Shown here one piece after another: positions 52,193-57,675 of a DNA stretch of 64,000 nt. The stretch is from Candidatus Macondimonas diazotrophica (lineage in GTDB: Bacteria > Pseudomonadota > Gammaproteobacteria > UBA5335), in contig NZ_SRIO01000007.1 in assembly GCF_004684205.1 (NCBI RefSeq), positions 1-64,000 on the forward strand. The letters are read 5' to 3'. The notes below the pieces were generated by a model, which was given only the letters and a program-made list of their open reading frames with translations, ran no database searches and was not told where the DNA came from. A program made the translations under genes and the position numbers. Position 1 is the first letter of the stretch. Every line of letters starts with the position of its first letter.

Positions 52193-53300
52193 ATGGCCGA
52201 TCTGACCGATTTCAACCTGCCCCGCCAGGACCTGCAAGATCTCAAAAGCCGTTTGAACGACCTTCGGGGGTATCTTTGACTATGCAGAGAAAAAGGACCG
52301 GCTGACCGAGGTCGAGCGCGAACTCGAGGTTCCGGAGGTCTGGAACGACGCTGAGCGCGCCCGCAAGCTGGGGCGTGAGCGGGCCGACCTGTTCGAGGTG
52401 GTCGATGGTCTGGAACGGCTGACGGCGGGGATCGACGATGCGCTTGAGCTGCTGGAGCTGGCGCGTGAGGAACAGGACGAGGCGGCGCTCGCCGGCATTG
52501 CCGAGGATGTGGCGCGCTACCGTCGCGAGGTCGAACAGCTGGAATTTCGCCGCATGTTTTCCGGTGAGCTCGACGGCGCCAATTGTTTCGTCGACATCCA
52601 GGCCGGTTCGGGCGGTACCGAAGCGCAGGACTGGGGCGAGATGCTGCTGCGCATGTATCTGCGCTGGGCGGAAAAGCGTGGATTCAAGGCGGAGCTGCTG
52701 GAAGTATCGGCAGGCGAAGTGGCGGGCATCAAGAGCGCGACCTTCCGTGTGGAAGGGAGTTATGCCTACGGCTGGCTGCGCACCGAAACCGGCGTGCACC
52801 GGCTGGTTCGCAAGTCACCGTTCGATTCCGGCAATCGCCGCCACACCTCGTTCTCCGCCGTGTTCGTTTCCCCTGAGGTGGACGACAACATCGAGATCGA
52901 CATCAATCCGGCCGACCTGCGGACCGACGTGTACCGGGCCAGCGGCGCCGGTGGTCAGCACGTCAACAAGACCGAATCGGCGGTACGCATCACACACATG
53001 CCGACCGGCATCGTCGCCGCCTGTCAGACCGAGCGTTCGCAGCATCAGAACCGCGATCGTGCGATGACCATGCTCAAGGCCAAGCTCTACGAGGTCGAAC
53101 TGCAAAAGCGGACAGCAGAAAAACAGGCGCTGGAGGACAACAAGTCCGACATCGGCTGGGGCCATCAGATCCGTTCCTACGTACTCGATCAATCACGCAT
53201 CAAGGATTTGCGTACTGGCGTGGAGATTGCCAACACTCAGGCCGTCCTGGACGGTGATCTCGATCCGTTCATCGAGGCTAGCTTAAAGAGCGGCCTGTGA
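52193..53300 (+). CDS. prfB: Peptide chain release factor 2, with programmed +1 frameshift
   Basis: RF2 releases peptides at UGA and UAA. Translation starts at ATG 52193 (GAGGAA upstream) and runs 28 codons to an in-frame TGA at 52277-52279. It then continues in the +1 frame from 52278 to 53300, giving a 368-residue protein close to the E. coli length. Downstream motifs are the anticodon-like SPF (RKSPFDS) that reads stop codons and the catalytic GGQ ([11 protein letters not shown]). Low RF2 slows reading of the TGA and favours the frame change, so the gene regulates itself. lysS follows after 95 bases, the common order. Confidence 0.97.
52265..52280 (+). promoter_or_regulatory. RF2 +1 programmed frameshift site
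   Basis: The run of five G at 52266-52270 acts as an internal Shine-Dalgarno sequence. TATCTTTGAC follows, the classic slippery CTT with TGA and C after it. Ribosomes slip from CTT onto TTT and continue with GAC. The upstream base differs from the E. coli site (CGGGGG instead of AGGGGG), but the core is identical. Confidence 0.95.
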
Positions 53301-55028: not shown

Positions 55029-55057
55029 TTGCCCAATGACCAGATTGCCGATAGAAT
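55029..55057 (+). promoter_or_regulatory. Promoter of tRNA-Val
   Basis: TTGCCC at 55029-55034, a 17-base spacer and TAGAAT at 55052-55057, 16 bases before the mature tRNA 5' end. Spacing and position are ideal. Confidence 0.65.
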
Positions 55058-55073: not shown

Positions 55074-55150
55074 AGGCGCGTAGCTCAGCTGGTTAGAGCA
55101 CCACCTTGACATGGTGGGGGTCGTTGGTTCGAGTCCAATCGCGCCTACCA
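55074..55150 (+). tRNA. tRNA-Val(GAC)
   Basis: A 77-base cloverleaf. The acceptor pair AGGCGCG/CGCGCCT is perfect, the D-arm is TAGCTCAGCTGGTTAGAGCA, and the anticodon stem CCACC/GGTGG holds the loop TTGACAT with anticodon GAC. The T-arm is TTGG-TTCGAGT-CCAA. The terminal A and CCA are encoded. It reads GUC and GUU codons. thrS follows after 80 bases with no terminator in between, so the primary transcript may continue into thrS. Confidence 0.98.
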
Positions 55151-55190
55151 TATTGATATTCATGGCCTTTTTCAGGTCCTCCCCAGCCAT

Positions 55191-55211
55191 GTGGCCTTTC
55201 GTGTGGGCCAC
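55191..55211 (+). promoter_or_regulatory. thrS leader hairpin mimicking the tRNA-Thr anticodon arm
   Basis: Arms 55191-55197 and 55205-55211 (six Watson-Crick pairs plus one T-G pair) enclose a seven-base loop 55198-55204, TTCGTGT. Reading it like a tRNA anticodon loop puts U at position 33 and C-G-U at 34-36, the anticodon of tRNA-Thr(CGU). It ends 9 bases before the AAGG ribosome binding site (55221-55224) and 19 bases before the ATG. In E. coli, ThrRS represses its own translation by binding such a mimic at this position. Function here is inferred. Confidence 0.65.
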
Positions 55212-55230
55212 CACTGAGACAAGGCCACGC

Positions 55231-57144
55231 ATGCCGACAGTTACCCTTCCCGATGGCAGCCAGCGTCACTACGACGCCGCGCCCACGCTTGCCCAGATCG
55301 CCGCAGATATCGGCCCCGGTTTGGCGAAAGCCGCCGTGGCGGGTCGGATCGACGGCCGCGAGGTCGATTTGTGCGTGACCGTTGACCGCGATGCCCGGAT
55401 CGAACTCATCACGGAGAAGGATCCCGCCGGCATCGATGTGGTGCGACATTCATGTGCCCATCTTCTTGGGCAAGCGGTCAAACAATTGTATCCAGAGGCC
55501 AAGATGGCCATCGGGCCCGTCATCGAGGACGGGTTCTATTACGATATCGATTATGTGCGCCCCTTTACGCCGGACGATCTGGATCGCATCGAGGAGCGCA
55601 TGAAAGCGCTCGCGGCGCATCGCTATGATGTGATTCGCAAGCCAGTGCCGCGCGATGAAGCGATTCGCGTGTTCCAGGAGCGCAACGAGCCGTACAAAGT
55701 CGAGATTCTCGGCGGCGTGCCGGCCGACGAGCAGGTTGCGCTGTACGTCCACGAAGAATACATCGACATGTGCCGCGGACCGCATGTGCCCAACATCGGC
55801 TTTCTGCGCGCTTTCAAGCTGACCAAGCTAGCCGGCGCCTATTGGCGGGGCGATGCGCAAAATCGCCAGTTGCAGCGCATTTACGGAACGTCCTGGCCCG
55901 ACCGGAAATCGCTGGATCTGTATCTCAAGCGCCTCGAGGAAGCCGAAAAGCGGGATCACCGGCGCATCGGCAAGGCGCTGGATCTGTTTCATCTCCAAGA
56001 AGAAGCACCGGGGATGGTGTTCTGGCATGACAAGGGCTGGCGGATCTATACCCTGATCCAGGACTACATCCGCGACCTGTTGCGTCGCAACGGCTATCAG
56101 GAAGTCCATACGCCGCAGGTGGTGGATCGCAGCCTGTGGGAGCGTTCCGGGCACTGGGAGAAATTCAAGGATGCCATGTTCACGACGCTTTCCGAGGAGC
56201 GTGAATATGCCATCAAGCCCATGAACTGCCCCTGTCATGTACAGATCTTCAACCATGGCCTGCGCAGTTATCGTGAATTGCCCCTGCGTATGGCGGAGTT
56301 CGGTGCCTGCCATCGCAACGAACCGTCCGGAGCCTTGCACGGTCTGATGCGAGTGCGTCATTTCGTTCAGGACGATGCCCATATCTTTTGTACCGAAGAC
56401 CAGGTCCAGGATGAGGTGGCCGCGTTCATCGATCTGGTCTTTCAGGTCTACCGCGCCTTCGGTTTCGAGGACGTGACGATCGCGCTTTCAACGCGTCCCG
56501 AGGCGCGAGTCGGCAGCGATGCTCAGTGGGATCGGGCCGAATCGGCCTTGGCCAGTGCCCTGTCGAGCAAGGGGCTGGCGTATCGTGTGCAGCCGGGCGA
56601 GGGCGCGTTCTACGGACCCAAAATCGAATTTGCGCTCAAGGATTGTCTGGGGCGAGTGTGGCAGTTGGGCACGATTCAGCTCGACTTCTCCATGCCGGAG
56701 CGACTTGGCGCCGAGTACGTAGCCGAGGACAATTCCCGTCGCGTCCCGGTGATGTTGCACCGCGCCATTTTGGGTTCGCTCGAGCGCTTTATCGGTATTT
56801 TGATCGAACACCACGCCGGGGCGTTGCCGGTCTGGCTGGCCCCCGTGCAGGCCGTCGTGATGAATATCACCGATCGCACCAAATCCTATGCGGCGGAGGT
56901 CGCGCAAGCCTTGTCAAATCAGGGTGTTCGGGCAGAAGTCGACTTGAGGAATGAGAAGATTGGCTTTAAAATTCGCGAGCACACAATTCAGAAGATTCCC
57001 TATCTGCTCGTCGTGGGCGATCGGGAATTGGACGCTGGAACCATTGCCGTACGCACCCGGACCGGGGAAGACTTGGGGGTCATGACGCTTGCCGAACTCG
57101 TGCAGCGTCTCCCGTCAGGTCCGGAATCCATGGCGTCGCACTAG
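55231..57144 (+). CDS. thrS: Threonyl-tRNA synthetase
   Basis: It charges tRNA-Thr and edits misformed Ser-tRNA-Thr. The 637-residue product has a TGS domain ([10 protein letters not shown], residues 1-62) and an editing domain with [16 protein letters not shown] near residue 73. The class II core carries zinc ligands in [10 protein letters not shown] near residue 331 and [15 protein letters not shown] near residue 375, and the C-terminal anticodon domain is [15 protein letters not shown] 55231 with AAGG upstream is the family start. It begins the thrS-infC-rpmI-rplT-pheST-ihfA block. Confidence 0.97.
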
Positions 57145-57156
57145 GAGGACTGAAAT

Positions 57157-57675
57157 ATCGCTGCGGAAAAACTAGCTCGGCGCAATGAAGAAATTACAGC
57201 GCCGCGGGTTCGCGTCATTGACGCGGCCGGAGACCAGATCGGAATTCTGATTCGTCGTGAAGCTCTGCAACTTGCCCATGACAGTGGGCTCGACTTGGTT
57301 GAGGTTTCACCGAACGCTGAGCCGCCAGTCTGCCGTATTATGGATTATGGCAAGTTCTCATTTGAGAAAAACAAATCTCAGCAGGCGGCCAAGCGCAAGC
57401 AAAAGCTGACTCAGATCAAGGAAATCAAGTTTCGTCCGGGAACGGACGAAGGGGACTACCAGGTCAAGCTGCGCAACCTGATTCGGTTCCTCGAAGATGG
57501 CGATAAAGCCAAAGTGACCCTGCGTTTTCGGGGTCGGGAAATGCAGCACCAGGACTTGGGTCGAGGGTTGCTCGACCGCCTCCGCACCGATCTCGCAGAA
57601 CACGCTGTCGTGGAGCAGGATGCGCGAATGGAAGGCCGTCTCATGGTGATGATGCTGGCCCCGAAGAAGAAGTAA
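57157..57675 (+). CDS. infC: Translation initiation factor IF-3, with ATC start codon
   Basis: IF-3 prevents 30S-50S joining and checks start-codon fidelity. The 172-residue product reads from the start codon: [21 protein letters not shown], with [14 protein letters not shown] following. The C-terminal domain has [42 protein letters not shown]. No ATG, GTG or TTG fits the N-terminus. A TGA (57151-57153) and AAT precede ATC 57157 in frame, so ATC is the only candidate. AGGAGG (57143-57148), overlapping the thrS stop, lies 8 bases before it. Non-canonical infC starts (AUU, AUA, AUC) let IF-3 repress its own synthesis. Confidence 0.96.

Follow-up and report, generated by a model that had tools for sequence, protein, structure and literature searches.

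The leader of thrS, in the 64,000-nucleotide stretch of DNA analysed here (the window), contains a hairpin, homologous to domain 2 of the corresponding E. coli leader, that is very probably a translational operator through which, by analogy with E. coli, threonyl-tRNA synthetase (ThrRS) would bind and repress its own mRNA. The relevant features of the window are the following:

55029..55057, + strand: promoter-like site TTGCCC-17-TAGAAT 5' of the tRNA-Val gene (consensus scan only; 1 found versus 0.2 expected).
55074..55150, + strand: tRNA-Val(GAC), the next upstream gene, outside the operator and perhaps co-transcribed with thrS (ARAGORN; no intervening terminator-like site).
55185..55219, + strand: whole conserved element as modelled, with CAT 5' of the stem and CACTG 3' of it (alignment A1; match of 44.4 bits to model R2).
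55191..55211, + strand: tRNA-Thr anticodon-arm mimic, the putative thrS operator and counterpart of E. coli domain 2, with G35-U36 at 55201-55202 (sequence, covariation, loop invariance, independent covariance model).
55212..55216, + strand: conserved 3' flank CACTG (near-invariant in 45 distinct relatives, A1).
55221..55224, + strand: Shine-Dalgarno (SD) sequence AAGG of thrS, 6 bases 5' of the ATG (sequence).
55231..57144, + strand: thrS, encoding a ThrRS of 637 aa (residues 1-628 aligned with E. coli ThrRS, 1QF6).

A sequence-only reading had described a 7-pair stem and a 7-base loop at 55191-55211, and both its coordinates and its pairing are exact: the strands 55191-55197 (GTGGCCT) and 55205-55211 (GGGCCAC) form six Watson-Crick pairs and a loop-closing U.G around the loop TTCGTGT (55198-55204). 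The numbering of an anticodon arm that it laid over the loop also fits (U32 U33 C34 G35 U36 G37 U38), as does the 9-base gap (55212-55220) that it noted between the stem and the SD; the hairpin ends 19 bases 5' of the ATG at 55231. By folding energy the leader does not stand out (z -0.77 over 110 nt), so that the claim must be carried by comparative evidence. Hairpins of at least 6 pairs with U33, G35 and U36 occurred within 120 bases in 2.3% of mononucleotide-shuffled leaders, against 64/87 real thrS leaders. A search of the window with Rfam returned two tRNAs only, with neither a hairpin family nor a T-box match, and no second GU-loop arm was found in the 80 bases that separate tRNA-Val from thrS.

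Searching species genomes with the window ThrRS yielded 80 loci, in most of which a near-identical hairpin lies 5' of thrS, as in Pseudomonas (GTGACCT-TTGGTAG-GGGTCAC), Marinomonas (GTGCTCT-TTGGTAT-GGAGCAC), Psychromonas (ATGCTTC-TTGGTTT-GAAGCAT) and Kluyvera (GTGCTCT-TTCGTGT-GGGGCAC). A search of the family added orthologous thrS genes in four relatives, of which three belong to the same genus, and the hairpin is kept in these same-genus and same-family genomes (G002-G005). The geometry of the thrS leader is thus retained in this lineage, as had been suggested, and E. coli shares both loop and position. In alignment A1, which comprises 45 distinct hairpins, 95.2% of the cells are paired and double-sided (compensatory) changes occur at six of the seven pairs, an invariant G-C occupying the third position from the outer end. 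The covariation score of 0.508 exceeds that of shuffled alignments (0.229; none of 500 shuffles as high) and is lost when the partner strand is slid, and RNAalifold recovered the identical seven pairs unprompted. The loop-adjacent pair is weak across hairpins, being U.G, C-G or a mismatch (for example C.C), and is C.C in the relatives of the window's family. The check proposed with the initial reading, stem covariation around an invariant CGU loop, therefore succeeded for the stem, whereas in the loop only the GU at 35-36 is fixed. The flank CACTG, both in the window and in the relatives of A1, is nearly invariant across many families, and neither the stem nor the SD accounts for it.

The first set of hairpins had been preselected for a GU loop, which made the invariance of GU circular, and the count was repeated on an unbiased set of 55 hairpins from the class sample, picked by stem and 3' flank only. 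Bases 35-36 were GU in 55/55, whereas base 34 was C in 32, G in 16, U in 4 and A in 3; base 33 was U in 48/55 and base 37 was A in 50/55. Selection by stem only, within -58 to -34, still gave GU in 56/64 hairpins, and among the eight others none had a CACTG-type flank and three were followed by a terminator-like T-run. ThrRS is known to recognise the anticodon mainly through G35 and U36. According to a review, the identity set includes anticodon nucleotides. At the sequence level, the pattern expected of a ThrRS ligand is one of fixed bases at the second and third anticodon positions and a free wobble base. Mimicry of tRNA-Thr thus holds; the specificity for the CGU isoacceptor that had been read from the window does not, because base 34 is free while GU is fixed, and the arm imitates tRNA-Thr in general. 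The genome does encode a tRNA-Thr(CGU), besides GGU and UGU. The anticodon stem of this tRNA (L106, in G000) is GCTGA/CCAGC, with an A31.C39 mismatch at the position where leader hairpins have a weak or mismatched pair.

The element is also highly specific to thrS. Model R2, a covariance model built without the window's family, placed the hairpin site far above any other in the 2.8-Mb genome (E 3.4e-9; next site 14.1 bits). Across 168 genomes of the class, model R1 gave 55 matches of at least 27 bits, in 55 genomes and all at thrS by coordinates. Among 199 genomes of the phylum, strong matches were confined to the class, and the nine best that were checked, the window aside, all precede thrS. 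Weak matches outside Gammaproteobacteria (G318, G259, G179, G282) and within the class (G150, G128, G041) were judged to arise by chance, none adjoining thrS and their loops or stems being broken; one of these rejected matches lies within a glutamate synthase-like ORF and one is antisense in a small conserved-looking ORF. The second thrS of G003 (L088), a genome with 7% contamination, lacks the element and was set aside.

Our sample was drawn evenly over the class and comprised 163 thrS-bearing genomes, in most cases one for each family; they gave 145 readable leaders. A correctly placed GU-loop hairpin was found in about 61 of these, and about half of the leaders have no recognisable arm, which indicates that thrS can manage without one. 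A ThrRS tree of 98 rows shows the element on either side of its deepest drawn split, with a clustered label (13 changes versus 21.4 shuffled), although some labels are noisy and L070 and L121 are probable false positives. The element is absent from all six Methylococcales loci. Given its presence on both sides of that split and its clustering, the distribution fits an element of old origin with several losses, for example in Methylococcales; gains are also possible. On the same tree, a cyanobacterial ThrRS without operator (L062, Prochlorococcus AG-311-D23) falls among gammaproteobacterial enzymes, probably through horizontal transfer.

A single arm is the commonest form across the class, two or three arms being a minority. 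Leaders with several GU-loop arms were recognised by script in G099, G056, G112, G170 and G044, a sixth (G149) being doubtful, and by eye in G037, G038 (three arms), G125, L039 and L069. The tandem mimics 5' of thrS at L136 (G038), L145 (G056), L172 (G099), L130 (G037), L194 (G125), L039 and L069 each carry a GU loop; they are spaced about 33-36 bases apart where measured and number two in most leaders and three in G038. The suggestion that the operator was reduced to one arm in this lineage is unsupported, one arm being the usual state in the sample. It is an even bet that the single free-wobble mimic is the basic, old gammaproteobacterial thrS operator, to which lineages added tandem arms or which they lost, the two-arm operator of E. 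coli then being one elaboration and not the model form.

E. coli ThrRS attaches to its own mRNA leader via anticodon-like arms, its N-terminal region excludes the 30S subunit, and tRNA-Thr competes for the enzyme (PMC7373986, PMC3858243, PMC9976931). The window ThrRS is of the E. coli type, with the N-terminal and anticodon-binding domains included in its alignment with 1QF6 over residues 1-628. N575, E600 and R609 (E. coli numbering), which we take to be anticodon contacts of E. coli ThrRS, are all conserved; a literature search for these contact residues returned no confirmation. PDB entry 1KOG is the structure of E. coli ThrRS with the essential domain of the operator. Because the window enzyme aligns over this length and keeps these presumed contact residues, we infer from E. 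coli that ThrRS binding, ribosome exclusion and competition by tRNA-Thr operate here too. The hairpin would display G35-U36 in an anticodon loop like that of tRNA-Thr; whenever there was more ThrRS than tRNA-Thr, the arm would be bound by the anticodon-binding domain, and the enzyme, lying next to the SD, would keep the 30S subunit off. Plentiful tRNA-Thr would take ThrRS away and allow thrS to be translated. A single arm would do this work in the present genome.

The 3' end of tRNA-Val(GAC) lies 80 bases before thrS. In a scan of the window no terminator-like site was found between the two genes and a single promoter-like site was found ahead of the tRNA, which makes their co-transcription plausible. 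A joint transcript cut at the 3' end of the tRNA would leave an 80-base leader carrying the single arm. Such co-transcription is not necessary to the system, since tRNA-Val lies within 260 bases upstream in 33 of the 61 hairpin-bearing leaders of the class and 19 of these 33 have an intervening T-run.

Three other explanations of the hairpin were weighed. It could be an inherited relic, sharing its origin with the E. coli operator yet no longer used for regulation by the ThrRS of this lineage, for instance if one arm were too weak. The single arm of the window and the many armless leaders of the class are compatible with such decay, which we nevertheless consider improbable: all four thrS-bearing relatives in the family keep the arm, with pairing and GU intact, while the remaining leader diverges, and single arms are the commonest form in the class. 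The hairpin could also be half of an RNA switch hiding the SD, in which the 5' strand GTGGCC has two alternative partners, its own 3' strand and the SD-overlapping GGCCAC at 55223-55228. Thermodynamic folding of the window leader does allow both forms, the hairpin with a predicted probability of about 0.56 and the SD-pairing form, which uses an exact second copy of GGCCAC, of about 0.39. This second copy is missing from same-genus leaders and from other families, and occlusion of the SD would leave the conservation of the loop unaccounted for; we therefore find the switch improbable and set the alternative fold aside as particular to the window.

Finally, the position of the hairpin downstream of tRNA-Val, together with the terminator found between tRNA-Val and thrS in some relatives, could indicate a transcription terminator or a hairpin for tRNA-Val processing. 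No T-run follows the hairpin in the window, however, relatives keep it whether or not tRNA-Val or a T-run is present, and terminators, where present, form a separate upstream hairpin. Stem covariation, this independence from T-run and tRNA-Val, and loop invariance refute the terminator or processing hairpin, which is scarcely credible. The thrS operator remains the preferred reading.

Two further genes near thrS bear classic translational controls. IF3 of E. coli is known to regulate itself through a rare start codon, and infC (IF3; window 57157-57675) has an apparent ATC start, with IF3 in frame from there and an SD upstream; same-genus leaders have ATC or ATA at this position. Moreover, prfB (RF2) has the classic site of programmed frameshifting, GGGGGTATCTTTGACTA, at window 52266-52282, so that thrS, infC and prfB place three classic translational self-controls within 5 kb.

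This kind of operator is already known from E. coli and serves as a textbook example of tRNA mimicry; to our knowledge, it is known essentially from that species only. Rfam 15 holds no model for it, and even the E. coli leader has no match there. No description of its breadth, of the NGU rule across families, of the CACTG flank or of the range from one to three arms was found in the open-licence literature, which is weak evidence of novelty. The comparison across families amounts to a natural mutagenesis, in which recognition of the mRNA appears to obey the identity rule of the tRNA (G35-U36 fixed, 34 free) while the stem is held by pairing. An Rfam family could be built from these alignments, allowing thrS control to be annotated in many genomes. 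The breadth, the free wobble base and the absence from Rfam are useful, though unlikely to surprise a specialist much.

In the E. coli thrS operator it is domain 2 that mimics the anticodon arm (PDB 1KOG; Romby 1996 and Torres-Larios 2002, cited in PMC9976931 and PMC7373986). Both operators precede thrS, that of E. coli (GTGATCT-TTCGTGT-GGGTCAC) at -42 and that of the window (GTGGCCT-TTCGTGT-GGGCCAC) at -41; the loop UUCGUGU is identical, the stem geometry is alike and the context CACCACTG is common to both. The E. coli operator has two arms (domains 2 and 4), whereas the window has one, without a counterpart of domain 4; since one-arm leaders are common, this difference is a variation inside the operator family. 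In the window, tRNA-Val stands where the E. coli leader has its upstream part. Regulation has been demonstrated for the E. coli operator and is predicted for that of the window. The AspRS mRNA of Saccharomyces cerevisiae and other eukaryotic anticodon mimics follow a similar principle, an anticodon-like arm within the mRNA that encodes the synthetase serving to bind it (PMC6542539), but the enzyme, kingdom and RNA differ and no homology is claimed. Gram-positive T-box leaders of thrS, like the window leader, are leader controls tuned to tRNA-Thr; the T-box binds the uncharged tRNA itself, whereas the leader of the window would imitate the tRNA and be bound by the enzyme.
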